A DNA stretch of 63,300 bases from Thermodesulfobacterium thermophilum DSM 1276. Lineage in GTDB: Bacteria > Desulfobacterota > Thermodesulfobacteria > Thermodesulfobacteriales > Thermodesulfobacteriaceae. Positions 13,427 through 31,395 of this stretch are shown here, piece after piece. The stretch is taken from contig NZ_ATXI01000011.1 in assembly GCF_000421605.1 (NCBI RefSeq), positions 1 to 63,300 on the forward strand, given 5' to 3'. Both the position numbers and the translations under genes were made by a program. Under the pieces are notes generated by a model. It made no database searches. It was not told the DNA's origin and was given only the letters and a program-made list of their open reading frames with translations. How positions within the stretch are numbered: the stretch's first letter is position 1; every line of letters begins with the position of its first letter.

Positions 13427-14308
13427 ATGGAAGAAAAAGGTTGTAGCTGTGAGAATCAATGTAGTCCTCAATGTGATGCAAAACAATGTGATGCAAAAAA
13501 AGGATTAAATGAAGAGGGTCAGGATGGGCTTAAAAATACAGTTTCTAAAATAAAAAGAAAAATTTTGGTGTTATCTGGAAAAGGAGGGGTTGGTAAAAGT
13601 ACGGTGTCTACCAATCTTGCGGTGGGGTTATCTCAAAAAGGATATTTTACTGGACTCTTGGATATAGATATTCACGGGCCTAATATTCCTAATATGTTAG
13701 GCTTACAAGGTATTCCTCCTTTGGTTACCGATGCCGGGCTTTTCCCTTTGAAGCCTTTTGAAAATTTAGAAGTAATCTCTATAGGGTTTTTCTTGCAGGA
13801 AAAAGACACACCGGTAATTTGGCGAGGTCCCCTGAAACATCGGGTGATAGAGCAGTTTTTAACAGAGGTTCGTTGGGGACCCCTTGATTATTTAGTGGTT
13901 GATTCTCCTCCAGGTACAGGAGATGAAGTGATTTCTATCCATCAACTTTTAGATAAAGTTGACGGAGCTGTCATAGTAGCTACCCCTCAAGAGGTAGCTT
14001 TGGCTGATGTGAGAAGGTCTATAAGGTTTTGTTTAGAGGCTTCGATCCCTATCCTTGGAGTTGTAGAAAACATGAGTGGGTTTGTTTGTCCCCGTTGTGG
14101 AGATATAATCGAAATATTTAAGACAGGTGGAGCGGAAAAAATCGCTAAAGAGTATAACATTCCTTTTTTAGGCAAAATTCCTCTTGACCCAAGGATAGTT
14201 CAGGGAGGAGACGAAGGAAAACCAGTTTTATTATACTATCCTGACAGTGAACCTGCTAAAGCTTTTGCAAAAGTGGTAGATAAAATCGTGGAGGCCCTTA
14301 ACCCTTGA
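13427..14308 (+). CDS. Mrp/NBP35-type Fe-S cluster carrier ATPase
   Basis: The 293-aa product has deviant Walker A SGKGGVGKSTVSTNLA near residue 49, switch GLLDIDIHGPNIPNM, VDSPPGTGDE and a C-terminal CPRC that holds the bridging 4Fe-4S cluster in Mrp/ApbC proteins. A Cys-rich N-terminus (CSCENQC...QCDAKQCDAKK, with the unit QCDAK repeated) resembles the extra N-terminal cluster site of NBP35. A gaggcc ribosome binding site precedes it. The stop overlaps the next gene by 4 bases. Expected role: assembly and transfer of Fe-S or mixed metal clusters in the cytoplasm, probably to the NifX-like proteins nearby. Confidence 0.9.
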   Translation: MEEKGCSCENQCSPQCDAKQCDAKKGLNEEGQDGLKNTVSKIKRKILVLSGKGGVGKSTVSTNLAVGLSQKGYFTGLLDIDIHGPNIPNMLGLQGIPPLVTDAGLFPLKPFENLEVISIGFFLQEKDTPVIWRGPLKHRVIEQFLTEVRWGPLDYLVVDSPPGTGDEVISIHQLLDKVDGAVIVATPQEVALADVRRSIRFCLEASIPILGVVENMSGFVCPRCGDIIEIFKTGGAEKIAKEYNIPFLGKIPLDPRIVQGGDEGKPVLLYYPDSEPAKAFAKVVDKIVEALNP

Positions 14309-15018
14309 TAGAAGTTACCATAGTTTTTGATAACTATAAGGGTGAACCAGGTTTTGAAACAGGTTGGGGATATAGCTGCGTTGTTAAGAGAAACGATGAA
14401 TTTTTACTTTTTGATACCGGGGCCGACGGACAAAAGTTGATAAAAAATTTAAAAAGAGCAGGGATAACTCCTTCTTTAGTTTCAAAAATCATTCTATCTC
14501 ATGCCCACAAAGACCATACAGGTGGTTTAAAAGAGATACAGAGTTTAATGCCTGAGGCTGAGATTTATGCCGGAGTCTCTTTTTATAAAGAGGCTAAAAA
14601 GTTATTGCCTTACGCAAGGTTGTTTAAAGTTTCTTCAGAGGTTTTAAGGATTACCCAAGGAGTTTATCTTACCGGTGAGCTTGAAGGAAAGGTCAAAGAA
14701 ACTTCCTTGGTTTTAGAAGCCAAAGATGGGGTGATAGTCCTTACAGGGTGTGCTCATCCTGGGATCGAAAAAATTATCGAAAAAGTTATCTCTGAGATCA
14801 ACCCTAAGGTTTTAGCGATTTTAGGAGGTCTTCATCTGCTTGATAAAAACGCGGAAGAAATTAGGAACGTGATAGCTTGTTTAGAAAGTAAAGATGTCCG
14901 ATTGCTCGCACCATCTCATTGCACCGGAGACCTTGCTCTAAAGCTTTTTAAACAACATTTTAAAGAAAGGTTTTTAAAGGTAGGGGTAGGGACTAAAATT
15001 ACTTTTGAGAGCAAATAA
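14305..15018 (+). CDS. MBL-fold metallohydrolase
   Basis: The 237-aa protein carries the metallo-beta-lactamase motif SHAHKDHTGGL (HxHxDH), GCAHPGI and GGLHL, giving a two-metal centre. The layout resembles the dihydropteroate-synthase-related MBL group (7,8-dihydropterin-linked enzymes). It starts with TTG at 14305 inside the last codons of the Mrp gene (TTGA overlap), which indicates translational coupling. Substrate unknown; genes of this group are commonly found with Mrp/NifX clusters in anaerobes. Confidence 0.8.
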   Translation: MIEVTIVFDNYKGEPGFETGWGYSCVVKRNDEFLLFDTGADGQKLIKNLKRAGITPSLVSKIILSHAHKDHTGGLKEIQSLMPEAEIYAGVSFYKEAKKLLPYARLFKVSSEVLRITQGVYLTGELEGKVKETSLVLEAKDGVIVLTGCAHPGIEKIIEKVISEINPKVLAILGGLHLLDKNAEEIRNVIACLESKDVRLLAPSHCTGDLALKLFKQHFKERFLKVGVGTKITFESK

Positions 15019-15042
15019 GAAAAGGTTATACAAGATAAACGA

Positions 15043-15885
15043 ATGATAATCTCAGTTGCCAGCGGAAAAGGAGGAACAGGTAAAACTACGGTAGCGGTTT
15101 CTTTAGCCTTAACCATAGGTAACGCTCAGATAATCGATTGTGATGTAGAAGAACCAAATGTTCGACTTTTTTTAACCCCAGAGATCAAAGAAACCTATCA
15201 AGTAAATACCCTGATTCCTGAGATAGATAAAGAAAAATGTACTTATTGTGGTTATTGTAGCAAAATATGCGTTTATAATGCTTTGTCTGTGTTAAAGTTT
15301 GAACAAGGTGGGGAGGTTTTCTTTTTTCCTCATCTATGTCATGGATGTGGAGGTTGTATTTTACTCTGTCCTGAAAAGGCTATTTATTCTGGATTCAGGC
15401 CTATAGGAGAAATAACCAAAGGTGTTAAAGAAGGCATAGAGTTTATAGAGGGGAAGCTAAACATTTCGGAGGTGCTTGCCCCTAAGGTAATCGAAGAAAC
15501 TAAAAAGTTTATCGATCCTGATAAGATTGCAATCATCGATGCCCCACCTGGTACTTCATGCCCTACGGTGGCCTCAATAAAAGGTGCTGATTTCTGCATT
15601 CTGGTTACAGAGCCAACCCCTTTTGGACTTCATGACTTAGAGCTTGCTTATGAAATGACCAAAGCTTTAAACATACCCTGCGGGGTAATTATTAATAAAT
15701 CTCAGGAAGATAAAATTGTGGAAAACTTTTGTGAAAAGGTTGGCCTTCCCATTTTGATGAAGATACCTTTTAAAAGAGAAATAGCTGAACTTTATTCAAA
15801 GGGCATTCCTTTGGTAGTTGGTATGCCTGAGTATCGGGAAGAATTTCGAAATCTTATTGAATCGATAAAGGGATTTATAAGATGA
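15043..15885 (+). CDS. MinD/ParA-like ATPase with inserted ferredoxin domain (first copy)
   Basis: This 280-aa protein has deviant Walker A SGKGGTGKTTVAVSLAL at the start, DCDVEEPN, and IDAPPGTSCPTVAS. Between them, about residues 64-110, lie two 4Fe-4S motifs, CTYCGYCSKIC and CHGCGGCILLC. Proteins of this kind, encoded as adjacent pairs, belong to the orange-protein complex of Desulfovibrio, which has been linked to cell division in that genus. Here the pair stands directly upstream of the division cluster. The ATG at 15043 has a weak ribosome binding site; the stop shares ATGA with the next gene. Confidence 0.9.
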   Translation: MIISVASGKGGTGKTTVAVSLALTIGNAQIIDCDVEEPNVRLFLTPEIKETYQVNTLIPEIDKEKCTYCGYCSKICVYNALSVLKFEQGGEVFFFPHLCHGCGGCILLCPEKAIYSGFRPIGEITKGVKEGIEFIEGKLNISEVLAPKVIEETKKFIDPDKIAIIDAPPGTSCPTVASIKGADFCILVTEPTPFGLHDLELAYEMTKALNIPCGVIINKSQEDKIVENFCEKVGLPILMKIPFKREIAELYSKGIPLVVGMPEYREEFRNLIESIKGFIR

Positions 15886-16742
15886 AACAGATTTTGGTGA
15901 TAAGTGGAAAAGGTGGAACAGGTAAAACCTTTTTTACAGGTTGTTTGGCAGTAGCTATCTTAAACAAGGTTATCGTAGATTGTGATGTGGATGCCGCTAA
16001 TTTACATCTGCTTTTACATCCTTCTATAGAGCAATCTTTTGAGTTTTTTGGAGGAAAGAAAGCCTTTATAGACAAAGAAAAATGTACCTTATGTGGGGCT
16101 TGTAGGGAGGTTTGTCAATTTGAGGCTATAAATGATGATTTTCAGGTGGATACGATTTCTTGTGAGGGTTGTACCATTTGTAGTTATGTGTGTCCAGCCT
16201 CAGCCATTGTGCTTTATGAAGCATTATCAGGACACTACTTTATTTCTCAAACTGAGTATGGAAAAATGGTTCACGCAAGACTTGGGATTGCTCAAGAAAG
16301 CTCAGGGAAATTGGTAGCTAAACTGAGAGAGATAGCTAAAGAAATAGCTGAGACAACCAAGGCAGATCATATCATCCTTGATGGGCCCCCTGGGATAGGT
16401 TGTCCGGTGATGGCCTCTATGACCGGGGTTGACCTTGCCATAGCCATCACCGAGCCAACTGTTTCTGGTCTTCACGATGTAAAAAGGGTGATAGATCTTG
16501 CTCGACATTTTAAGGTGGACCTAAAGGTGATTATCAATAAGTATGACTTAAATCCTGAGATGAGCCAGCATATAACCACCCATCTTGATAAAGAAGGAGT
16601 TGAGGTAATAGGTGTAATTCCCTTTTCTGAAGAAATTTTAAAGTCAGTAAAAGCTGGGATTCCTTATCTAAAATTTTCGAGAGGTAGTTTAGCCAGAAAG
16701 ATAGAACAACTCATATTTAAAATTCTTGAAGAAATCACTTAG
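15882..16742 (+). CDS. MinD/ParA-like ATPase with inserted ferredoxin domain (second copy)
   Basis: The 286-aa paralogue of the previous gene shares its plan: SGKGGTGKTFFTGCLAV, DCDVDAANLH, ferredoxin motifs CTLCGACREVC and CEGCTICSYVC, and LDGPPGIGCPVMAS. It starts within the stop of the first copy (ATGA), so the two are made together and probably form a heterodimer. It is the last gene of the cluster; 180 bases later mraZ begins the division genes. No terminator is visible between them, so read-through is possible. Confidence 0.9.
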   Translation: MKQILVISGKGGTGKTFFTGCLAVAILNKVIVDCDVDAANLHLLLHPSIEQSFEFFGGKKAFIDKEKCTLCGACREVCQFEAINDDFQVDTISCEGCTICSYVCPASAIVLYEALSGHYFISQTEYGKMVHARLGIAQESSGKLVAKLREIAKEIAETTKADHIILDGPPGIGCPVMASMTGVDLAIAITEPTVSGLHDVKRVIDLARHFKVDLKVIINKYDLNPEMSQHITTHLDKEGVEVIGVIPFSEEILKSVKAGIPYLKFSRGSLARKIEQLIFKILEEIT

Positions 16743-16890: not shown

Positions 16891-16920
16891 AGTGGTATAT
16901 AGTGGTAAAAAGTGGAAGAT
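16891..16920 (+). promoter_or_regulatory. MraZ operator: three 10-bp AGTGG repeats
   Basis: Three consecutive decamers (agtggtatat, agtggtaaaa, agtggaagat) place AGTGG on one helix face at exact 10-base steps and end one base before the ATG of mraZ. MraZ proteins bind GTGG-type repeats with this period in front of their own operon, so this is almost certainly the autorepression site. It overlaps the ribosome binding region (ggaaga) and lies at the expected start of transcription. Confidence 0.85.
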
Positions 16921-16921
16921 A

Positions 16922-17371
16922 ATGTTTAGGGGCAAGTTTAAGCATTCTTTAGATGAGAAAGGTCGATTTAGTCTTCCAGCTAAGTTTAGGGAGGTTCTAA
17001 GGGTTAAGTATGGGAGCGAAAATTTAGTGGTTACCAACTATCCGGAGTGTTTGGTAGCCTATCCTGTAGAGGAATGGCAAAAGATAGAAGAGAAGTTGTT
17101 GGGGCTTCCTTGGGATGTTCCAGAGGTAAGGGAATATGTAAGGTATTTTTTAGGTTCTGCTGAGGAATGCCAGCCTGACAAACAGGGAAGGATTTTGTTA
17201 CCTCAGTCTTTGAGAGAAGAAATTGGGTTAGAAAAAGAGGTGGTGCTGTTAGGAATGCTTTATCATTTTGAGATATGGAATCCAGTTCATTTAGAAAGCA
17301 GGTTTAGAGAGACAAAGAATAATTTCAACCAGATTATGCAGATGATAAATCCCTATCTGACCGGGAGGTAG
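16922..17371 (+). CDS. mraZ: Transcriptional regulator MraZ
   Basis: The 149-aa product starts at the ATG at 16922 (MFRGKFKHSLDEKGRFSLPAKF). The earlier in-frame GTG at 16892 lies inside the operator repeats and would add non-family residues. Two SpoVT/AbrB-like halves are visible, each with D-x-K-G-R: SLDEKGRFSLPAKFRE and QPDKQGRILLPQSLRE. MraZ is a DNA-binding repressor or activator of the dcw genes; its AGTGG boxes lie directly upstream. The stop TAG at 17369-17371 comes right after gggagg, which serves as the ribosome binding site of rsmH. Confidence 0.95.
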   Translation: MFRGKFKHSLDEKGRFSLPAKFREVLRVKYGSENLVVTNYPECLVAYPVEEWQKIEEKLLGLPWDVPEVREYVRYFLGSAEECQPDKQGRILLPQSLREEIGLEKEVVLLGMLYHFEIWNPVHLESRFRETKNNFNQIMQMINPYLTGR

Positions 17372-17374
17372 AGT

Positions 17375-18235
17375 ATTTCTTTCCATGAGCCTGTGCTTTT
17401 AGAGGAGGTTATAGATTTGCTTGAAGTGGTTCCAGATAAGATCTATGTAGACGGCACCGTAGGGATGGGAGGGCATAGTGAAGCTATTCTTGAAAGGTCT
17501 TCTCCTACAGGTGTTTTATACGGTTTTGAATGGAATGAACCTTCTTTTGAGCTCGCTAAGCAAAGGTTAAGTAAGTATGGAGATAGAGCAAGACTTTTTA
17601 ACTTAAATTTTATTTATATAAAAGAAGTTTTACAGAAAGAAGGTGTGTTGGCAGATGGGATTTTATTAGACCTAGGTATTTCTTCTTTTCTGTTAGAACA
17701 TAGCGGACGGGGTTTTTCTTTTCAAAAAGATGGGCCTTTAGACATGAGGATGAGTTTGGAAAGAGAGCTTACCGCAGAAAAAATCTTGAATACCTATGAT
17801 ATAAAAAGGCTTTCTCAGGTTTTTTTAACAGGTGAGGTCCCAAGTGCCCTTAAATTTGCTCAGTTTATCTGCGAAAGAAGAAAAAGAAAACCCTTTAAAA
17901 CCACTAAAGATTTGGTAGAGGCTGTTAAGGAGTTTTATAAAAGTAGCAGAAAGAGCCTTCTTGCTGTGATCTTTCAAAGCTTACGAATAGAGGTTAACGA
18001 AGAACTTAAGAATTTAGAAAAGGTGTTAAAGGAGGTGCCCGAGGTTTTAAAAACAGGAGGAAGGATAGCGATAATTTCTTTTCATTCTTTAGAGGATAGG
18101 CTGGTAAAAAATTTTTTTAAGGTTGACCCAAGGATAAGGCCTGTGTTAAAAAAGCCGGTTGTTCCTACTTTAGAAGAGATAAGAAGAAATCCAAGGGCCC
18201 GTAGTGCCAAACTAAGGGTGGGGGAGAAAATATGA
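17375..18235 (+). CDS. rsmH: 16S rRNA m4C1402 methyltransferase RsmH
   Basis: RsmH methylates the N4 of C1402 in 16S rRNA. Visible: YVDGTVGMGGHSEAIL (SAM binding), ILLDLGISSFLLEH, SGRGFSFQKDGPLDMRM and IISFHSLEDRLVKNFF. No ATG, GTG or TTG lies upstream of the GTG at 17393, yet the family N-terminus (H-x-P-V-L-L-x-E-V) is encoded from FHEPVLLEEV, which begins before that GTG. The in-frame codon ATT at 17375 lies 6 bases after gggagg (17363-17368) and right after the mraZ stop, so translation probably starts at this rare codon, giving 286 residues. A start at the GTG would remove the conserved His-x-Pro. It is an odd but well-supported start. Confidence 0.9.
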   Translation: MSFHEPVLLEEVIDLLEVVPDKIYVDGTVGMGGHSEAILERSSPTGVLYGFEWNEPSFELAKQRLSKYGDRARLFNLNFIYIKEVLQKEGVLADGILLDLGISSFLLEHSGRGFSFQKDGPLDMRMSLERELTAEKILNTYDIKRLSQVFLTGEVPSALKFAQFICERRKRKPFKTTKDLVEAVKEFYKSSRKSLLAVIFQSLRIEVNEELKNLEKVLKEVPEVLKTGGRIAIISFHSLEDRLVKNFFKVDPRIRPVLKKPVVPTLEEIRRNPRARSAKLRVGEKI

Positions 18236-18588
18236 TAGCCAATAAAACCTTGGTTTATAAGCCTCATTTAGACCGTAGGGTTAACCAGGTTTCGAGTTCT
18301 CAAAAGAAAAACGTGGCCAAGTTTTGTTTTAAAGAATGGATAAAACAGCTGACTTTTAATACCGCTCTTATCCTAACCACGGTATTGCTCTTTGTAATGT
18401 CGGTAGCTACAGCCTATAAAACCTATGTTTGGATTAAGCTAAAGGTAGAAAAACACCAGCTTCTTAGCAAAAATAAAGAATTAAAAAATCAGTTTTATAG
18501 CTTAACCAGTCGAGAAATAGTGTTAGAAAAGGCTAAAAAACTTGGGTTAAGACCACCTCAAAATGGGGATTATATTTTTCTAAGATGA
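18232..18588 (+). CDS. ftsL: Cell division protein FtsL-like
   Basis: The 118-aa protein has a basic cytoplasmic N-terminus, one membrane helix (TALILTTVLLFVMSVATAY) and a short coiled-coil tail (VEKHQLLSKNKELKNQFYSL) ending in LGLRPPQNGDYIFLR, which matches the FtsL pattern. FtsL forms the FtsQLB complex that activates the septal synthase. It overlaps both neighbours by 4 bases (ATGA), in the position always held by ftsL between rsmH and ftsI. Sequence identity of FtsL is low across bacteria, so the call rests on topology and place. Confidence 0.85.
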   Translation: MIANKTLVYKPHLDRRVNQVSSSQKKNVAKFCFKEWIKQLTFNTALILTTVLLFVMSVATAYKTYVWIKLKVEKHQLLSKNKELKNQFYSLTSREIVLEKAKKLGLRPPQNGDYIFLR

Positions 18589-19547
18589 GTAAAAAACAGC
18601 ATTACAGTTTATGGTGTTTTTTGGGCATATTTCTGTTTTTTCTGGTGTTGGTGCTCAATTTTTCTGTCGAAAAGGTTACCGGCAAATCTTCTCTTCCTGA
18701 GGTAAAACGAGGATATATTTTTGATAGAAACTACGAACCCTTAGTCATTACTTTAGAAAACTATAAGGCCTACTATGTTATTAAAAACAACAACTGGATG
18801 GCTGAGTCTATCCCTGAGGTTGTAAAGGCTTACCTTCCTTCTACCTTAAACCTTCCAAAAAAGGGGATTATCCTTCTTTCTGAGGATTTGACGTTAGATG
18901 AAGTAGAGAGGCTCTCAAAGGAGTCAAGAGTTCTTATAGAAAAATCTTTTAGAAGAAAGATACTGGTTCCAGAGATAGATTTTCTGATAGGAGAAACGTT
19001 TAATGGTTATGGGGTTTCAGGTTTAGAAAAGAGGTTTGATGCTTATCTCCAGAAAGGAGAGCCGCTGGTGTTATCTTTGGACCTTAAAAAGGAAAAAAAG
19101 TTTCTGAATCTAAAAAAACAGTTAGAAAAAAATTATAAACTAGGTTTAGCAGAAATAGACCTTTTTACAGGAGAGGTTTTAGCTTACGTGGATGAAAAAG
19201 AAACTCCGTTGTTTGAAGAAGCCTACCCTTCATCAGTTTTTGGGATATTTCATAAAAATCAAAAGACAACTCTCTGGGGTTTAGGGGAATACTTTTTGGC
19301 CAGTCTTTGTGGTCAGAATATTTCTATTGATTTTGTGAAAAAAAACGAAAAGGTTTGCAATCCAGAGTTGGAAAATTTCTCCAAAGACAAGATGATGTTT
19401 TTATTGGACAAATCGGTGGTAAGGGTTTATTTTAAGGATAATAAAATGTTAATTGTAGTTTTAAAAGAGAAGAACAATTCTTCCGAGGACATAAAGATTA
19501 GTCTTTGTTCAGAACGGTTTGACGACTTATTTGCAGGGTTGTTATGA
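18585..19547 (+). CDS. Degenerate FtsI/PBP3-like protein without transpeptidase motifs
   Basis: The 320-aa protein sits in the ftsI slot and keeps the PBP class B N-terminal half: one membrane helix (about 11-27), RGYIFDRNYEPL (about 42-53; normally R-G-x-I-x-D-R-x-G), GYGVSGLEKRFDAYLQ (about 141-156) and AEIDLFTGEVLAYV (about 189-202), equal to the strand before the active site. Where FtsI has P-G-S-x-x-K, it has YPSSVFG (about 214-220), so the Lys partner is Gly. SxN and KTG motifs are absent, and only about 100 residues remain instead of about 300. It cannot be an active transpeptidase. The frame is intact and overlaps ftsL and murE by 4 bases each, so it is still translated, perhaps as a structural partner. 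Confidence 0.8.
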   Translation: MSKKQHYSLWCFLGIFLFFLVLVLNFSVEKVTGKSSLPEVKRGYIFDRNYEPLVITLENYKAYYVIKNNNWMAESIPEVVKAYLPSTLNLPKKGIILLSEDLTLDEVERLSKESRVLIEKSFRRKILVPEIDFLIGETFNGYGVSGLEKRFDAYLQKGEPLVLSLDLKKEKKFLNLKKQLEKNYKLGLAEIDLFTGEVLAYVDEKETPLFEEAYPSSVFGIFHKNQKTTLWGLGEYFLASLCGQNISIDFVKKNEKVCNPELENFSKDKMMFLLDKSVVRVYFKDNKMLIVVLKEKNNSSEDIKISLCSERFDDLFAGLL

Positions 19548-21034
19548 AAACTCTGAAGGACATTATTCAGGACGTAGAAATACTAAAGGTTTATCCTGAG
19601 GATGAGGGGTGGTTAACCATTCAGGCATATGGAATTGCTGACAACTCTAAAGAGATATCTGAGGGCTACGTGTTTATAGCAAGGAAAGGGACTAATCTTA
19701 AGGGCGAAGACTTTATACCTGAGGCTATTAACAGAGGTGCTAAGGTTATCGTTAGGGAGACCCCTATAGAGCCCCAAAAAATTCCCTCAGGGGTTTATCA
19801 AATCCAGGTAAGGGATGTTAAAAAAGCCCTTTCTCAGATGGCTTTGAATTTTTTTGACCACCCTGAAAAGAAACTAACCCTTATAGGGGTTACCGGAACC
19901 AACGGAAAAACTTCGGTATGCTACTTTACAAAAACGTTGTTGCAAAGCCTTGGGGTAAAAACCGGGTATATAGGAACTATTTTTTACGAAATAGAAAGAA
20001 GAATTCCTGCTACTGAGACCACGCCTTCTATCATAAAACTTGGTTGGTTGATGAAAGAAATGGTAGATAAGGGATTTAAAGCCTGTGTGATGGAGGTTTC
20101 TTCTCATGCTTTAGACCAAAAAAGAGTAGAAGGACTTTCCTTTGAAATAGCAGGTTTTACCAACCTTTCAAGAGATCACTTGGATTACCATAAAACCATG
20201 GAAGCCTATTTTCAGGCTAAAAAGTTACTTTTTACCGATTATTTAACTCCAGAAGGCAAGGTAGTTTTATCTTTTGAGACAGAGTATGGGAAAAGACTTT
20301 ATCAGGAGTTAAAAACCTTTTTACCTGAAGACCGGATCTTTATTGTAAATAATGGTGGTTTAAGGGTAGAGATTTTAGGGATGGAAGATGGGCTTGAGGT
20401 AGAGTTAAAATTTTTAGAGACTGGTGAGGTATATAGGGTTAAAACCACACTTTTTGGAGAATACCAGGCAAAAAATCTGGCTACGACAGTAGGGATTTTG
20501 ACAGCTTTAGGCTATCCCAAGGAAGAGATAGCTTTAAGGCTTAGGGAGCTTAGAAATCCGGTAGGAAGGTTAGAGCTGGTAGCTGAGTTTAACGGGGCTA
20601 AGGTGTTTGTAGACTATGCCCATACTCCTTCAGCTCTGGAGTATGCCTTGAAAAGTTTATTACCTCTAAAGAAAAACAGGCTTGTCGTGGTTTTTGGTTG
20701 TGGAGGGAACCGAGATGCTGGTAAAAGACCTCTTATGGGTGAGATAGCAGAAACTATTGCAGACTATGTAATTATTACCTCAGACAACCCCCGTTTTGAA
20801 GAGCCCGAGGCTATCATCAACGATATAAAGAAGGGGCTAAAAGGTATAAAACCCTGTGAAGTGATTCCAGACAGAAGAGAAGCTATCGAGTTTGCGATAA
20901 AACTTTTAGAAGAAGGAGATGTATTGTTAATCGCAGGAAAGGGGCATGAAACCTATCAGGAGATTCAGGGAAAAAGGTATCCCTTTTCTGACCAGGAAGA
21001 GATTTTGGAAACTATAAAGAGGCTAAGAGGTTAA
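19544..21034 (+). CDS. murE: UDP-MurNAc-L-Ala-D-Glu:meso-DAP ligase MurE
   Basis: The 496-aa ligase adds the third residue of the peptidoglycan stem in the cytoplasm. Visible: TGTNGKTSVCYF (ATP loop), ATETTP, VMEVSSHALDQKRVEG, DYAHTPSALEYAL, GGNRDAGKRPLM, and DNPRFEEP; the DNPR motif marks enzymes that use meso-diaminopimelate. GHETYQ near the end is the usual C-terminal signature. It overlaps the ftsI-like gene by 4 bases and precedes murF with a 4-base gap, so it lies within one long transcript. Confidence 0.95.
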   Translation: MKTLKDIIQDVEILKVYPEDEGWLTIQAYGIADNSKEISEGYVFIARKGTNLKGEDFIPEAINRGAKVIVRETPIEPQKIPSGVYQIQVRDVKKALSQMALNFFDHPEKKLTLIGVTGTNGKTSVCYFTKTLLQSLGVKTGYIGTIFYEIERRIPATETTPSIIKLGWLMKEMVDKGFKACVMEVSSHALDQKRVEGLSFEIAGFTNLSRDHLDYHKTMEAYFQAKKLLFTDYLTPEGKVVLSFETEYGKRLYQELKTFLPEDRIFIVNNGGLRVEILGMEDGLEVELKFLETGEVYRVKTTLFGEYQAKNLATTVGILTALGYPKEEIALRLRELRNPVGRLELVAEFNGAKVFVDYAHTPSALEYALKSLLPLKKNRLVVVFGCGGNRDAGKRPLMGEIAETIADYVIITSDNPRFEEPEAIINDIKKGLKGIKPCEVIPDRREAIEFAIKLLEEGDVLLIAGKGHETYQEIQGKRYPFSDQEEILETIKRLRG

Positions 21035-23531: not shown

Positions 23532-24926
23532 ATGGAAATCTCAGGAAAAAAGGTAGTAGTTATCGGTTTTGGAAAAAGTGGACAGGCTGCTACTAAACTT
23601 TTACTCAAAAAAGGGGCTAAGGTTTTGGTTTCTGAGACCAACCCCAGAGAAAAATTTGACCCCTCTTTGATTTCTAAATTTGAAACCCAAGGGGTGGAGT
23701 TTAAGTTTGGAGGTCATGAAATAGAAGATTTTTTGAAATCCGATTTAGTAGTCGTAAGTCCAGGGGTTCCAAGAGAGGTCTATCAGGAATGTTTGAAAAA
23801 AGATATCCCGGTGTTAGGTGAGCTTGAACTTGCCTGGCAGTTTTTAAGAAATAAAGAGCAAGTTATAGCTATTACCGGTACCAACGGGAAAACTACTACT
23901 ACCGCTATGGTTTCTGACCTTTTAAAACTTTCAGGATATAAGGTGTTTACCGGCGGAAATTATGGTATCCCCCTTTCAGAACTGGTTTATCGTGAAACCG
24001 AGGTAGACAAAATCGTACTTGAGGTATCCAGCTTTCAGTTGGAAACCGTAGAAACGTTTAAACCCAAGGTAGGAATTTTACTTAACATTACCCCCGACCA
24101 CTTAGAGAGATATGAATCAGAAAAAGAGTATGCCTATTACAAGTATAGGCTTTTTGAAAATCAAACCTCTCAAGACTATAGCATCCTTCCTTTAAACGAA
24201 CCTTGGTTTTCTCATTTTCAGGACTTGGTGAAGGGTAAGATCTGCTTTTTTTCTGAAAAAGAAGAAAAGACAGCTCAAGCCTATTTGAAAGATGAAAACC
24301 AATTTGTATTAAGGATAGGGGATAAAGAAGAGGTATATTCTTTTAAGGGTTTTAAGTTATTGGGTTTACATAATAAGTTAAACTATATAGTGGCAAGCTT
24401 GGGGGCACGTCTTATGGGGGCATCTCCCTCAAGTGTTGAAAGACTGATAACGGAGTTTAAGGGGTTCCCTCACAGGATAGAGTATGTAACCTCCTTGGGA
24501 GGGGTGATTTTTATCAACGATTCTAAGGCCACCAACGTAGATGCCACTTTGCAGGCTTTAAAAGGGCTTGAGGGGAGATTTATCCTTATCATGGGAGGAA
24601 GACACAAAGGGGCCTCTTATAGTCCTCTAATTACTTATATTAAAGAAAAGGTTAAGGCTTTGGTGTTGATGGGAGAGGCAAGGTATGTGATAGCTGAAGA
24701 GTTAGGCCAGGTAGTGGAAACCTATCTTGTCGAAAACTTAGCGCAGGCTGTAGCCATTGCTTTAAAATTAGCTGAACCTGGAGATTGTGTGCTATTGTCT
24801 CCTGCTTGTTCAAGTTTTGATCAGTTTAAAAACTATGAAGAAAGAGGCGAGGTTTTTAGGGACCTGGTTTTTAAATATGCTCCTCTTTTTCTTAAAGACC
24901 ATGAAATAAACGAGGTATACCATTGA
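23532..24926 (+). CDS. murD: UDP-MurNAc-L-Ala:D-Glu ligase MurD
   Basis: The 464-aa ligase adds D-glutamate. Visible: VVIGFGKSGQAATKLLLKKG at the N-terminus, ITGTNGKTTTTAMVSDLL, LEVSSFQLETVETFKPKV, LNITPDHLERY, NDSKATNVDATLQAL and LLSPACSSFDQFKNYEERG. The stop overlaps murG by 4 bases. In nearly all dcw clusters ftsW follows murD; here no space exists for it. Confidence 0.95.
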   Translation: MEISGKKVVVIGFGKSGQAATKLLLKKGAKVLVSETNPREKFDPSLISKFETQGVEFKFGGHEIEDFLKSDLVVVSPGVPREVYQECLKKDIPVLGELELAWQFLRNKEQVIAITGTNGKTTTTAMVSDLLKLSGYKVFTGGNYGIPLSELVYRETEVDKIVLEVSSFQLETVETFKPKVGILLNITPDHLERYESEKEYAYYKYRLFENQTSQDYSILPLNEPWFSHFQDLVKGKICFFSEKEEKTAQAYLKDENQFVLRIGDKEEVYSFKGFKLLGLHNKLNYIVASLGARLMGASPSSVERLITEFKGFPHRIEYVTSLGGVIFINDSKATNVDATLQALKGLEGRFILIMGGRHKGASYSPLITYIKEKVKALVLMGEARYVIAEELGQVVETYLVENLAQAVAIALKLAEPGDCVLLSPACSSFDQFKNYEERGEVFRDLVFKYAPLFLKDHEINEVYH

Positions 24927-26002
24927 GGTGGTTGATTGTAGCCGGAGGAACAGGAGGACATCTTTTCCCAGGGATAGCGGTTGCAGAAGAATTGCAGAGG
25001 TTGGGTAAAGAGATTTGTTTTGTTTCTGGCAAAAGAAAGATAGAAAAGACCATCCTCAAAGACAGACCTTTTAAAGTTTATGAACTTGACGTAGAAGGGT
25101 TTTTAGGAAGGTCGGTGTTAGATAAGTTTAGGGCTGGGTTAAAGATGGTAAAAGGGATATTTCAGTCTTACCGGTTAATAAACCATCTTAATCCAGATAT
25201 TATTTTTGCTACCGGTGGGTATATTTCTTTCCCTGTGGTGATCGCAGGAAAAATAAAAAACAAGGTTACTGCCCTTCATGAGCAAAACGTAGAACCTGGA
25301 TTGGCTAATAAAATACTTTCTTACCTGGTAGACAGGGTTTTTATAAGTATCCCAGGTAGCGAAAAGTCTTTCCCTAAGGGAAAGGTAGTTTTTTCAGGAA
25401 ATCCTGTCAGAAAGTCTATCTTGACAAAAAGGCCTAAGGAACATACAGGTTTAGGGTTGTTGATTTTAGGAGGTAGTTTAGGGGCAAGGTTTATTAACGA
25501 GTTAGCCTTAGAAATTATGCCTAAACTGCTGATCCAGTTTAAAGATTTATTCGTTTTTCATCAAACAGGGATGGAGGAATACGAAAAGGTTAAAAATGCT
25601 TACGATAAAACAATACCTAAGGATTGGCAAGAAAGGGTTAGGGTTTTTCCGTTTATAGAGGATATGGGTTGGGCATATTCTCAGGCAGACCTGTTTTTAG
25701 GAAGGGCTGGGGCTACCACCTTGGCTGAGCTTTTTGCCGTGGGATTGCCAGCTGTTTTTATTCCTTTCCCTTATGCTACCCGAGACCATCAAAAGAAGAA
25801 TGCCTTGAGGGTGGCTGAAAAAGGAGGGGCGGTGGTTGTAGACCAAAAAGAGGCGACCCCAGATAAAGTTTTACAGGTTTTGAAGAATTTGCTTAACGAT
25901 AGGAAAAAACTACAGGAGATGGCTGAAGCTATGAAAAGTTTTTTTGTCCCTTCTTCAGAAAAGATCATCATCGAGGAGCTTGAGAGGTTGGCTAATGTTT
26001 AA
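24923..26002 (+). CDS. murG: UDP-GlcNAc:lipid I GlcNAc transferase MurG
   Basis: The 359-aa glycosyltransferase forms lipid II at the inner face of the membrane. Visible: IVAGGTGGHLFPGIAVAEEL, ATGGYISFPVVIAGKI, HEQNVEPGLANKIL, GGSLGARFINELAL and GRAGATTLAELFAVGLP with FPYATRDHQ. It starts with TTG at 24923 (ATTGAGG) in the last codons of murD, and the stop overlaps murC by 8 bases. Confidence 0.95.
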   Translation: MRWLIVAGGTGGHLFPGIAVAEELQRLGKEICFVSGKRKIEKTILKDRPFKVYELDVEGFLGRSVLDKFRAGLKMVKGIFQSYRLINHLNPDIIFATGGYISFPVVIAGKIKNKVTALHEQNVEPGLANKILSYLVDRVFISIPGSEKSFPKGKVVFSGNPVRKSILTKRPKEHTGLGLLILGGSLGARFINELALEIMPKLLIQFKDLFVFHQTGMEEYEKVKNAYDKTIPKDWQERVRVFPFIEDMGWAYSQADLFLGRAGATTLAELFAVGLPAVFIPFPYATRDHQKKNALRVAEKGGAVVVDQKEATPDKVLQVLKNLLNDRKKLQEMAEAMKSFFVPSSEKIIIEELERLANV

Positions 26003-27398: not shown

Positions 27399-28302
27399 AG
27401 AATTTTTAGAAGAAAACAAAATTTTCTATTTAGAAAACGAGCCGTTGGCTTCCTATACTACCATAAAGATAGGTGGACCTTGCGATCTTTTGGTTTTTCC
27501 CAAAGAAAAGGAGGTTTTAGTAAAACTACTAGAGTTTTTGGAAAATACAGGGACACCTTTTTATATTTTGGGTGGAGGAAGCAATCTTTTGGTTGCAGAC
27601 GAAGGTTTTAAAGGGGTGGTGATTAGCCTAAAAAGATTAAAAGGGATTGAGTTTTTAAATGAGGAAAAAGACGAAGTAGTTTTGAAGGTCAAAGCTGGGA
27701 CAGGGGTTAATAAGCTTATAAGTTTATGTCTTAAAAAGGGTTTTTCTGGTATGGAGTTTTTAGCAGGGGTTCCTGCAACCATAGGTGGGACAGTTAGGAT
27801 GAACGCAGGGGCCTTTGGAAGAAGTATTTCTCAGGTAGTAAAAAAAGTCCTACTTTACCATAGGGGAGATTTAGTCTATTGTGAAGTTAGTGAGGAGGAC
27901 TGGAGTTATAGAAGGTTTAAAAAAGAGGGGGTTATTTTAGAAGCAGAGCTTAAGCTTGAAAAAAGTGAAAAAGAGGTGGTAAAAAGAAAAGTTTTAGAGG
28001 TTTTAAACAAACGGAGACTTACCCAACCGATTTCTAAAAGTACCTTTGGGTCGGTGTTTAAAAATCCTCCTTGTTACTATGCCGGTCAGTTGATAGAGGC
28101 CTGTGGTTTGAAAGGTTATAAGGTAGGAGGAGCAGAGATATCTAAGAAACATGCTAATTTTATCGTAAATCTGGGTAGAGCCAAGGCTAAAGAGGTGTTA
28201 GAATTGATGAAGTTGGCTAAAACAAATGTGTGGGAAAAATTTAGGGTAAAGTTAGAACCTGAGGTAAAGTTTTTGGGAATAAAAGATGGAGAAATTTTTT
28301 AG
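27382..28302 (+). CDS. murB: UDP-N-acetylenolpyruvoylglucosamine reductase MurB
   Basis: The 306-aa FAD enzyme makes UDP-MurNAc. Visible: NEPLASYTTIKIGGPCDLLV, ILGGGSNLLVADEGFKGVVI (FAD loop), GMEFLAGVPATIGGTVRMNA, WSYRRFKKE, STFGSVFKNPP (with the catalytic Ser) and GLKGYKVGGAEISKKHANF. A type II (shorter) MurB by length. It overlaps murC and ftsQ by 17 bases each. Confidence 0.95.
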   Translation: MRQEIREFLEENKIFYLENEPLASYTTIKIGGPCDLLVFPKEKEVLVKLLEFLENTGTPFYILGGGSNLLVADEGFKGVVISLKRLKGIEFLNEEKDEVVLKVKAGTGVNKLISLCLKKGFSGMEFLAGVPATIGGTVRMNAGAFGRSISQVVKKVLLYHRGDLVYCEVSEEDWSYRRFKKEGVILEAELKLEKSEKEVVKRKVLEVLNKRRLTQPISKSTFGSVFKNPPCYYAGQLIEACGLKGYKVGGAEISKKHANFIVNLGRAKAKEVLELMKLAKTNVWEKFRVKLEPEVKFLGIKDGEIF

Positions 28303-29014
28303 TTTGCTAAAAAGACCTGTTTTCTGGGGGGGTATAAGTTTTTTAGTTTTGGTAGGGCTGGTGTTTTATTTACTTTATTTTACAGATCTTTTTGTTTTAA
28401 AAGAGATTAAAGTTAGCCCTACCAAAAGGGTAAGTAAAGATGAAATAATTAAACTTACAGGTCTTAAAGGAGGAGAGCGTTTTTTTGCTATCTCACTAAA
28501 AGATTTAAGAAACCAGATACTAACTAACAAGAACATAGAAGAGGTAACGATTGTTAGGCATTTACCTGGCACTTTAGAATTGGTGATCAAGGAAAGAGAA
28601 CCTTTGGCTATCATAGTAAAAGATAATAAAGGGTTTTTAATAGATAAAAAAGGCGTGATTATGGAAGGCATTTTACCAGAAGATTATTTCTTTTACCCTG
28701 TTTTAGAGTTAAAAAGCGAGGTATCGAAAGATAAATTTTTTGAATTTCTTTTTTGGTTAAAAAACAACAAAAACTATTTGCCTGTTTATGAAAACATTGC
28801 TAAAATTGTATTAGATGATAACAAAATAGTTATGGTAACCAAAAATCATATTAAGATTTATTTTCCTTTGGTTTCTGAAAAAGATTGGGTTTATTTTTAT
28901 AAGAACCTCGACAAGATAATGGCCTATCTTTATGAAAACGGACAGACAGAAAAAGTAGAATTGATTCGGTTAGACTATCCTTTAGGGCAAGCCTTAATCA
29001 AATTTAGGGAGTGA
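28286..29014 (+). CDS. ftsQ: Cell division protein FtsQ/DivIB
   Basis: The 242-aa bitopic membrane protein has one helix near the N-terminus (FWGGISFLVLVGLVFYLLYF) and then a POTRA domain (FVLKEIKVSPTKRVSKDEII), followed by the beta domain with RHLPGTLELVIKEREPLAI. It is part of the FtsQLB divisome complex. Its position before ftsA/ftsZ is standard; ddl, often found before it, is absent here. Confidence 0.9.
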   Translation: MEKFFSLLKRPVFWGGISFLVLVGLVFYLLYFTDLFVLKEIKVSPTKRVSKDEIIKLTGLKGGERFFAISLKDLRNQILTNKNIEEVTIVRHLPGTLELVIKEREPLAIIVKDNKGFLIDKKGVIMEGILPEDYFFYPVLELKSEVSKDKFFEFLFWLKNNKNYLPVYENIAKIVLDDNKIVMVTKNHIKIYFPLVSEKDWVYFYKNLDKIMAYLYENGQTEKVELIRLDYPLGQALIKFRE

Positions 29015-29019
29015 TTAAG

Positions 29020-30264
29020 ATGGGTAAAGAGACAGGAATTTTGGTAGTAGATGTAGGGACTACCAAAGTATGTGTTTTAATAGGAGAAGAGAGAGAAGGA
29101 GAACTTTGGGTTACTGGAATTGGTATAGCTCCTTCTCAAGGGTTAAAAAAAGGCATGGTTTTAAACATCGATGAAGCAACACAGAGTATCAAAAATGCTA
29201 TCGAAAAGGCTTTATCTCAGGCCAAAATAGGCATAGGAAGTATTTATGTGAGTATAGCTGGGCCTCATATCAGAACTATTTCTGGGATGGGTGTGGTAGC
29301 TTTAAGACAAAAGTGTGTTACAGAAGAGGATGTAGAGGAGGTCCTTAGGTCAGCTCAGAATTTAAATCTCCCCCCTGAAACAGAGATTTTGCATGTTATC
29401 CCTCAGGAGTATATTTTAGACCAGCAAGGGGGGATTCTCCAGCCTGTTGGGATGACAGGGGTTAGGTTAGAGGCTCATGTAAAACTTATAGTTTGCAACC
29501 GTTCTTCTTTGCAAAATCTGCTTAGATGTTTCGAAAATCTCAATTTAGAGGTAGACGGGGTTATTTTCCAGGGCCTTGCTTCAGCCGAAGCAGTTTTGAC
29601 CCCTGAAGAAAAGGAATTAGGAGTAGTGCTTTTAGACTTTGGCGGTGGGACTACAGATGTAGTTATCTACTGGGATAACGTTTTAAGAGGAGTTTTTTCT
29701 ATTCAGGTAGGAGGGGAACATTTAACCAACGACTTAGCGGTTGGGCTGAGAACTTCGAGAAAAGAAGCAGAAAGGCTTAAGATAGAAAAAGGGGTTTGTT
29801 TAAGGGAGCTTGTGGAGGAAGAGGAAATTTTAGAGGTAACAGGTATAGGTAATCGTCCCCCAAGGAAAGTAAGTAAAAAGTTTTTGGCTGAGATTTTAGA
29901 ACCCAGGGTTAAAGAGCTTTTTGAGTTGATAGAAAATGAGCTTCGAAAAGAGGTTTTAAGTCAGTTTAAAGGTTTTGATTTTAAGTCTAAGATAGGAAGT
30001 GGAATGGTAATTACTGGAGGTTCTTCCCTTATACCTGGTTTGGTCTATTTAGCAGACCAGATGTTTGACTTGCCTGCTCGTGTAGGCTATCCTGTAAGAC
30101 TTTATGGTCTCACTGAAGAGGTCTATCATCCTCAGTTTTCTACCGCGGTAGGTATGTTGCTTTATGCATACAAGTATGGAGAAAGGCCAGGGCTTAAAGA
30201 GGAAGGAGAAGGTATCATAGAAAAGATAAAACAAGGTATAAAAAAAATTTTTAAAGGGGGCTAA
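29020..30264 (+). CDS. ftsA: Cell division protein FtsA
   Basis: FtsA is an actin-fold protein that ties FtsZ to the membrane. Visible: GILVVDVGTTKVCVLIGE (phosphate 1), VSIAGPHIRTISGMG (1C domain), LLDFGGGTTDVVIYWDN (phosphate 2), GGEHLTNDLAVGL and GMVITGGSSLIPGL. The C-terminus GIIEKIKQGIKKIFKGG is the amphipathic membrane-targeting helix. The ATG at 29020 is preferred to the GTG at 29011 because agggag lies 11 bases before the ATG and only 2 before the GTG; the difference is three residues. Confidence 0.95.
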   Translation: MGKETGILVVDVGTTKVCVLIGEEREGELWVTGIGIAPSQGLKKGMVLNIDEATQSIKNAIEKALSQAKIGIGSIYVSIAGPHIRTISGMGVVALRQKCVTEEDVEEVLRSAQNLNLPPETEILHVIPQEYILDQQGGILQPVGMTGVRLEAHVKLIVCNRSSLQNLLRCFENLNLEVDGVIFQGLASAEAVLTPEEKELGVVLLDFGGGTTDVVIYWDNVLRGVFSIQVGGEHLTNDLAVGLRTSRKEAERLKIEKGVCLRELVEEEEILEVTGIGNRPPRKVSKKFLAEILEPRVKELFELIENELRKEVLSQFKGFDFKSKIGSGMVITGGSSLIPGLVYLADQMFDLPARVGYPVRLYGLTEEVYHPQFSTAVGMLLYAYKYGERPGLKEEGEGIIEKIKQGIKKIFKGG

Positions 30265-30267
30265 GAT

Positions 30268-31395
30268 ATGAGCATTTCTTTTGAGTTGTTAGAAGAAGAA
30301 ATTCGGGTACAACCTAACATCAAGGTAATAGGTGTAGGTGGTGCTGGAGGGAATGCTGTTGCTAACATGATTAGAAATAAACTTTTAGGTGTAGAGTTTG
30401 TGGTAGCCAATACAGATTACAAGGTCCTTGAATTGAACCCAGCCCCTATAAAGATCCAGTTGGGGAAAAGACTTACCAACGGAATGGGAGCAGGTGGAAA
30501 GCCAGAAATAGGTAAAAGGGCCGCAGAAGAAAGCGAAAAAGAGATCCGAGATGTTTTGAAAGATGCAGAAATGGTGTTTATTGCAGCAGGTATGGGAGGA
30601 GGTACGGGAACTGGTGCAGCTCCGGTGATAGCTAATATATGTAAAGAGCTTGGAATTCTCACCGTAGCAGTAGTAACCAAACCTTTTTCTTTTGAAGGAA
30701 GGCATAGAATTAGGATTGCTGAGGAGGGTTTGGCAGAACTTTCTAAGTTTGTAGATACCTTGATTACCATCCCAAACGATCGGTTGCTCACCCTTGGTTC
30801 TCCCCAGGAAAGATTGGCAGAAATGTTTAAAAAAGCCGATGATGTATTATATTATGCGGTGAGAGGTATTTCAGATCTTATTTTATCCCCAGGGTATATC
30901 AACCTTGATTTTGCAGACGTTAAGGCGGTGATGAGTGATAGCGGAGGTATGGCTTTGATGGGTATGGGTGAAGCCGCAGGAGAGGGTAGGGCAGAAATAG
31001 CTACCCAGATGGCAGTCTACAGTCCGCTTTTAGAAGACCTTTCTATTTCAGGGGCTAAAGGGGTGTTGCTTAACATAAGCGTTAACCCTGAAAATTTTAC
31101 CATCCATGAGACCCAGGTAATAACCAGTATGGTTTCAAAGGAGATCCATCCAGATGCTAAGGTATATTTGGGTGTGGTTTTTGATGAATCTTTGGGGGAT
31201 GTTTTAAGGGTTACTGTGATTGCCACCGGGCTTGACTCTGCTAAAAAAGAAGAGAAAAACGGTAAGGTTGTCAACATAGAAGAAGGAGTAAAGAGAAGAG
31301 AAGAGAGAGAAAAAGTTAATAGATTAGAAGAAAATTCCTTAGAAGATACAGATGTGCTTGATATCCCAACATTTCTTAGAAGGAACGCAGACTAA
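30268..31395 (+). CDS. ftsZ: Cell division GTPase FtsZ
   Basis: The 375-aa tubulin homologue forms the division ring. Visible: VIGVGGAGGNAVANMI, AAGMGGGTGTGAAPVIA (tubulin signature), NDRLL, and FADVKAVMSDSGGMALMGMG. The linker (about 330-360) is charged and rich in E/K/R, and the C-terminal peptide DIPTFLRRNAD is intact, so contacts with FtsA and MinC-type partners are expected. It follows ftsA by 3 bases with the start in a clear ribosome binding site (aaggggg). Confidence 0.97.
   Translation: MSISFELLEEEIRVQPNIKVIGVGGAGGNAVANMIRNKLLGVEFVVANTDYKVLELNPAPIKIQLGKRLTNGMGAGGKPEIGKRAAEESEKEIRDVLKDAEMVFIAAGMGGGTGTGAAPVIANICKELGILTVAVVTKPFSFEGRHRIRIAEEGLAELSKFVDTLITIPNDRLLTLGSPQERLAEMFKKADDVLYYAVRGISDLILSPGYINLDFADVKAVMSDSGGMALMGMGEAAGEGRAEIATQMAVYSPLLEDLSISGAKGVLLNISVNPENFTIHETQVITSMVSKEIHPDAKVYLGVVFDESLGDVLRVTVIATGLDSAKKEEKNGKVVNIEEGVKRREEREKVNRLEENSLEDTDVLDIPTFLRRNAD

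Follow-up and report, generated by a model that had tools for sequence, protein, structure and literature searches.

Loss of FtsW is linked with retention of a catalytically dead FtsI in Thermodesulfobacteria and neighbouring families

Which function can an FtsI protein have in the dcw cluster when its catalytic centre is gone? This question is raised by a gene of 320 codons, referred to as pseudo-ftsI, in a stretch of 63,300 nucleotides of Thermodesulfobacterium thermophilum DSM 1276 (the window). The source genome has a size of 1.79 Mb, consists of 46 contigs and is rated 100% complete. Pseudo-ftsI is inserted between an ftsL-like gene and murE and occupies the regular position of ftsI (Table 1). 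A previous sequence-only reading had placed it at 18585–19547 in overlap with both neighbours, and these coordinates proved to be exact, with 4 bases shared on each side. The closest named relative is the protein of Thermodesulfobacterium hveragerdense with 92% identity over the protein. The region directly upstream of mraZ (14305–16742) encodes, as read from the sequence, a metallo-β-lactamase-fold protein and two adjoining MinD/ParA-type ATPases, into which ferredoxin-like cysteine motifs are inserted.

Table 1. Pseudo-ftsI, its parts and the neighbouring dcw genes in the window
Feature	Position	Strand	Remarks
mraZ	16892..17371	+	
mraW (rsmH)	17393..18235	+	
FtsL-like protein, 118 aa	18232..18588	+	4-base overlap with pseudo-ftsI
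Pseudo-FtsI, catalytically dead FtsI orthologue, 320 aa	18585..19547	+	
Pseudo-FtsI, membrane helix, residues 5–27	18597..18665	+	DSSP helix on model, hydropathy
Pseudo-FtsI, retained anchor/head module, residues 41–160	18705..19064	+	KRGYIFDRN and G..G.SGLEK.FD motifs
Pseudo-FtsI, miniature transpeptidase core, residues 161–320	19065..19544	+	SxxK..SxN segment and KTG absent
murE	19544..21034	+	4-base overlap with pseudo-ftsI
murD (23532–24926) overlapping murG (24923–26002)	23532..26002	+	usual ftsW site empty
ftsQ, FtsQ-type POTRA	28286..29014	+	
ftsA	29011..30264	+	
ftsZ	30268..31395	+	

A Pfam search with pseudo-FtsI yielded a sub-threshold PBP_dimer match (residues 40–92, E 0.0015) and no transpeptidase match. 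The AlphaFold2 model (mean pLDDT 84.1, pTM 0.72) finds its best structural matches in FtsI/PBP3 crystal structures (Foldseek E 1.9e-11). Superposition onto PBP3 (7onk) gives a Z of 18.9 and an rmsd of 4.1 for 281 aligned residues over residues 30–320, and superposition onto FtsI of the divisome core (8bh1) a Z of 18.2. Pseudo-FtsI shares with FtsI/PBP3 the locus, the single N-terminal membrane helix, the anchor motifs RGxIxDR and G..GlE and the class B PBP fold including the anchor/head module. It differs from them by the absence of the catalytic motifs SxxK, SxN and KTG, of the anchor-loop, of the pivot region and of an FtsW partner, and the corresponding proteins of the class are shorter, with 291–522 aa compared to about 590–690 aa in FtsI.

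The nature of the losses emerged from an alignment of 32 proteins from the ftsI slot of the class with E. coli FtsI as reference. In all 32 the segment from SxxK to SxN is filled to 0–21%, the KTG motif itself is missing and the anchor-loop region (E. coli FtsI 201–228) is filled to 7–29%, i.e. 71–93% of it is missing, whereas most of the anchor strand, of the head and of the initial strands of the transpeptidase domain is retained. The pivot region is also gone in the short forms (11% filled). Judged from this alignment, the active-site segments of pseudo-FtsI are deleted, not merely mutated. The sequence-only reading had correctly recognized the retained N-terminal FtsI module with its membrane helix and the loss of SxN and KTG, but had taken the tetrapeptide SVFG (residues 218–221) for an altered SxxK. 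This assignment has to be abandoned, as the whole segment from SxxK to beyond SxN is excised and relatives carry other letters at this place (YPLNLFG etc.). Neither is the protein a half left by truncation, as had been assumed; the anchor and head modules are followed by a miniature transpeptidase core, in which the strands flanking the excised active site on both sides remain.

The distribution of this form was analysed in 41 genomes of the class from three families and ten genera (Thermodesulfobacterium, Caldimicrobium and relatives); families are designated in the following by f codes and genomes by G numbers of this analysis. The ftsI slot is readable in 34 of them, including that of the window, and carries an intact open reading frame in each case, in several of them on a single contig. 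Its product comprises 291–340 aa in the genus of the window and two other genera, 370–392 aa in further genera of the same family, 449–474 aa in f3 and 522 aa in f2, compared to 593–670 aa of normal FtsI in more distant members of the phylum. The longer slot proteins (part of f1, f2 and f3) keep the PASTA tail found in the normal FtsI of the phylum, which is lost in the genus of the window and its Caldimicrobium-like relatives. In a phylogenetic tree the f2 and f3 proteins group with FtsI apart from PBP2 with a split support of 1.000. Pseudo-ftsI is a true orthologue of ftsI; for the short form of the window, we base the assignment on synteny and on the graded series leading to the longer f2 and f3 forms.

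The shortening within the class, which leads from 522 down to 291 aa, together with a faster evolution of the C-terminal part within the genus, might suggest a relic that shrinks stepwise and neutrally since the loss of FtsW. However, a broken copy is absent among the 34 class genomes and 22 columns are invariant in the slot proteins of three genera. The dN/dS ratio of the slot gene amounts to 0.087–0.199 in nine species pairs of f1 and f3, a range shared by ftsL, murE and mraW when compared between these species, and is also low (0.05–0.30) in the C-terminal part. Because its dN/dS resembles that of murE, the slot gene is no pseudogene, and we regard its neutral decay as very improbable. Scarcely better founded is the idea that the gene merely couples translation of ftsL to that of murE. 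Such a role would be compatible with the ATGA overlaps at either end of the gene in the window and with short overlaps in many relatives, but it would constrain the ends of the gene alone, whereas the constraint on amino acids runs throughout, and some relatives have small gaps instead.

An intact, translated-type frame for a dead FtsI in the dcw operon, noted before as a very unusual trait, is common to the class and under purifying selection. A recent truncation is ruled out by the class-wide occurrence of the dead form, and comparison of the slot across the relatives revealed no normal ftsI within the class. A frameshift or assembly error, for which the 46 contigs of the source assembly might be held responsible, is incompatible with the same short frame in the single-contig genomes G004, G010, G013, G017, G018, G025 and G027.

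The second feature of the locus, which had escaped the sequence-only reading, is the loss of ftsW in the same genomes, accompanied by the loss of FtsW-facing elements of the protein. FtsW is the enzyme thought to make the septal wall in nearly all walled bacteria. E. coli carries its gene exactly between murD and murG; in the window the end of murD (24926) overlaps the start of murG (24923) and leaves no room for it. A genome-wide search revealed one SEDS gene in the source genome, encoding RodA, and a single SEDS gene was likewise found in 41 of 41 class genomes (in G012 a second match was obtained, which corresponds to the opposite end of this gene, located on a different contig). This sole SEDS protein adjoins PBP2 and falls outside the FtsW clade, and the sole class B PBP falls in the PBP2 clade; tree and neighbours thereby rule out that the remaining pair is a relocated FtsW–FtsI. 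The only SEDS protein available to pseudo-FtsI is therefore of the RodA type.

Three sites with a transpeptidase domain were detected in the source genome, and none of them is a split-off half of FtsI. The first is PBP2 (648 aa), whose gene has rodA immediately downstream and a small MreD-like frame with several membrane segments upstream; PBP2 is the only protein with a PBP_dimer domain above cut-off, so that the proposed search for other class B PBPs ends with PBP2. The second is a class A PBP of 629 aa with SxxK, SxN and KTG all present, and the third a protein of 354 aa, which according to its sequence may be an S11-type DD-carboxypeptidase. In the class genomes PBP2 keeps motifs of the STYK/SCD/KTG type and RodA its catalytic aspartate. 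With one SEDS protein, one class B PBP and one class A PBP recovered, a hidden active septal pair elsewhere, like an assembly error that broke ftsI and dropped ftsW, is refuted for the known SEDS and PBP families, and we attribute a negligible probability to it. The cells must consequently divide with wall-building enzymes other than FtsW–FtsI. This agrees with the earlier proposal that septal cross-linking is done by another enzyme, for which PBP2, the class A PBP, the S11-like carboxypeptidase and three YkuD L,D-transpeptidase-like proteins of the source genome are possible sources. The other division proteins FtsZ, FtsA, FtsQ, FtsL, FtsB and an FtsN-like protein are all retained, FtsB (113 aa, membrane helix and coiled coil) and the FtsN-like protein (229 aa, membrane helix and SPOR) being encoded outside the window. 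In the source genome and in f1 and f3, RodA scores below the NCBIfam RodA cut-off, though RodA is the best family.

What remains of pseudo-FtsI probably fulfils a structural or regulatory function. The anchor/head module, devoid of pivot helix and anchor-loop, is its best-conserved part; within the short group the mean identity is highest for residues 41–66 (0.77), stays at about 0.65 up to residue 160 and drops to 0.33–0.55 toward the C-terminus. Most invariant residues belong to the anchor strand and the head, which face FtsL and FtsB. In E. coli, the pivot helix (51–61) and the anchor-loop of FtsI touch ECL4 of FtsW, while the head and other parts touch FtsL and FtsB (PMC10390529). As the FtsW-facing elements and FtsW itself are both absent, these parts were apparently lost along with FtsW in the family of the window. 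Several points count against a role as FtsQLB subunit. The anchor-loop, kept in some families devoid of FtsW (see below), also contacts FtsL. Moreover, the C-terminal part of E. coli FtsI pairs with FtsL in the so-called truss, and the poor conservation of this part in pseudo-FtsI (mean identity 0.33–0.39) argues against an FtsQLB subunit. Instead, the protein might be a sensor of the peptidoglycan/PASTA type or a membrane adaptor independent of FtsQLB. The PASTA tail kept in part of f1, in f2 and in f3 conforms to this idea, as do two families outside the class, f25 and f49, whose proteins keep mainly the helix and a PASTA-like tail, and one close pair of f3, in which constraint on the C-terminal half exceeds that on the rest of the gene. 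On the other hand, the genus of the window and its Caldimicrobium-like relatives manage without a PASTA tail and conserve the anchor/head module best of all, which renders this alternative rather unlikely.

The combination of a dead FtsI and a missing FtsW, likewise overlooked in the sequence-only reading, recurs in other families of the phylum. Of 118 sampled genomes of the phylum, 6 belong to the class; among the 112 others, two or three SEDS proteins were counted in 90, one in 21 and none in one. Among these 22 genomes with few SEDS proteins, five keep FtsW in the dcw cluster (G096 with a normal FtsI) and sixteen have a cluster devoid of ftsW; G094 stands separate, as no mraW was found there and its RodA lies next to PBP2. 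For six genomes with one SEDS protein, this protein was shown to be a RodA adjoining PBP2. The slot frame lacks the PGSxxK, SSN and KTGT motifs in 16 of 16 ftsW-less clusters outside the class, distributed over nine families, whereas all three motifs are present in FtsI of each of the 11 clusters that possess ftsW together with a complete ftsI frame; in a twelfth cluster with ftsW (G051), SxxK and SxN are present and the frame stops before KTG. The dead proteins of these families differ in what they retain. That of f19 has the full length of 643 aa with replaced motifs (ELGELAG for EPGSTFK), and those of f16 and f60 are also long. Most or all of the anchor-loop persists in f16 and f19 despite the absence of FtsW, which indicates that loss of this loop was a later step in some lineages. 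In f25 and f49, little has been left beyond the membrane helix and the PASTA-like tail; the anchor/head module is accordingly not indispensable everywhere.

The number of independent losses was estimated from a phylogeny of seven other dcw proteins, a quick tree with groups named after the data had been seen. The best tree requires three losses of FtsW together with FtsI catalysis. Uniting all ftsW-less genomes in one clade is disfavoured (p-AU 0.018), the union of f19 with the main clade is not rejected (p-AU 0.38) and that of f25/f49 with the main clade is borderline (p-AU 0.088). In view of the latter two values we claim two or three losses in the phylum, not three; a strict single origin is, on these sequences, disfavoured rather than excluded.

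Several further observations were made on these clusters. At the ftsW position of f25 and f49, between murD and murG, a conserved multi-membrane frame of about 263 aa is found (L124:5588–6376, L125:5610–6392, L130:5295–6083, L132:5354–6136); we do not claim it as a shrunken FtsW, as it has no Pfam match and profile comparison to FtsW gave a probability of 0.4%. Small CxxC-rich frames (68–91 aa) are located between the same genes in G149 (L131 near 9141–9344) and G107 (L127 near 8817–9089). Apparent MurE–MurF fusions of 982–1045 aa occur in the dcw clusters of G117, G107, G128, G082 and G157 (L123, L127, L129, L133, L135). The genome G128 (f16) gave no SEDS match, although it is rated 99% complete and its dcw cluster is otherwise present. 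The reverse case, FtsW in the dcw cluster and seemingly no RodA, is represented by the single-SEDS genomes G058, G059, G062, G098 and G096 (L110, L111, L112, L115, L126).

That the dcw cluster of Thermodesulfobacteria has lost ftsW is stated in one clause of a 2022 LBCA cell-wall study (PMC8871954), the passages found of which do not mention a dead FtsI, the lack of a further SEDS protein in the whole genome or a recurrence elsewhere. No report of these three features and no work on FtsW/FtsI in Desulfobacterota was found in a library of open-access papers. Hence, the loss of ftsW from the cluster is known, and the dead FtsI appears unreported in these papers. Among experimentally studied systems, PBP3 of C. 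difficile comes closest, by analogy, to a class B PBP that works in the divisome without catalysis. This organism, lacking a vegetative FtsW–FtsI, divides using the class A PBP1 (PMC10693644), and its class B PBP3 is recruited to the divisome, forms a complex with PBP1 and promotes septation independently of its catalytic activity (PMC12539705). Both systems share a vegetative division without canonical FtsW/FtsI and, if the role proposed here holds, a class B PBP whose task needs no catalysis (PMC10693644, PMC12539705). They differ in that the dcw pair SpoVE/SpoVD of C. difficile is catalytic and sporulation-specific and PBP3 an intact orphan enzyme, whereas the dcw FtsI of the class is dead, ftsW is absent and, unlike in C. 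difficile, FtsA and an FtsN-like protein are present.

On balance, we consider it fairly probable that pseudo-FtsI acts as a non-catalytic subunit associated with FtsQLB, while the septum is made by RodA–PBP2 and/or the class A PBP. According to this scenario, the FtsW–FtsI pair would have fallen out of use in the ancestor of the class, and probably of several neighbouring families as well. Subsequently, ftsW would have been deleted and ftsI would have lost its catalytic segments, while the FtsI body was kept by purifying selection. Pseudo-FtsI might then remain membrane-bound in company with FtsQ, FtsL and FtsB, as a subunit of structural or regulatory function, and link the signal of the Z-ring, transmitted by FtsA, the FtsN-like protein and FtsQLB, to the remaining synthases; construction and cross-linking of the septal wall would fall to RodA–PBP2 and/or the single class A PBP. 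A role as scaffold, already proposed in the sequence-only reading, or as activator is suggested by the pattern of conserved parts and by the precedents, and membership in FtsQLB as well as the identity of the septum-building enzyme are likewise proposals.

As to this enzyme, RodA–PBP2 is the sole SEDS–bPBP pair left, with intact motifs, and either serves both elongation and division or leaves division to the class A PBP. If pseudo-FtsI is the FtsQLB-associated subunit, a septum made by the class A PBP alone, with RodA–PBP2 confined to elongation, is a serious possibility towards which we do not quite lean. It is backed by the C. difficile precedent (PMC10693644, PMC12539705) and the intact class A PBP of the source genome, but is less easily reconciled with the markedly faster evolution of RodA in f1 and f3. 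There, RodA has diverged 2.2–2.5 times as far as the RodA of G025, compared to 1.05–1.8 times for mraW, murE and PBP2. This would fit a changed, perhaps double, role of RodA and is not decisive; G025 is without acceleration. A more specific version of the FtsQLB-associated subunit, offered tentatively and with greater doubt, assumes that side wall and septum are both products of RodA–PBP2, alone or aided by the class A PBP, and that the dead FtsI, devoid of its FtsW-facing parts, is the adaptor by which FtsQLB and the FtsN-like protein turn on septal synthesis. This arrangement would have arisen two or three times in the phylum, in each case by loss of ftsW and inactivation of a retained ftsI.

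To our knowledge, FtsW–FtsI was considered universally essential for septal wall synthesis, with C. difficile as the described exception. Here, a whole class and many neighbouring families keep FtsZ, FtsA and FtsQLB, have no FtsW and carry a dead FtsI. The larger finding is that loss of FtsW is linked with loss of FtsI catalysis while the FtsI body is retained. These bacteria constitute a natural experiment, in which the structural work of FtsI is separated from its chemistry. It shows which parts of FtsI survive without catalysis and without FtsW, and it opens the way to testing whether RodA–PBP2 or a class A PBP can be driven by FtsQLB in septum formation.
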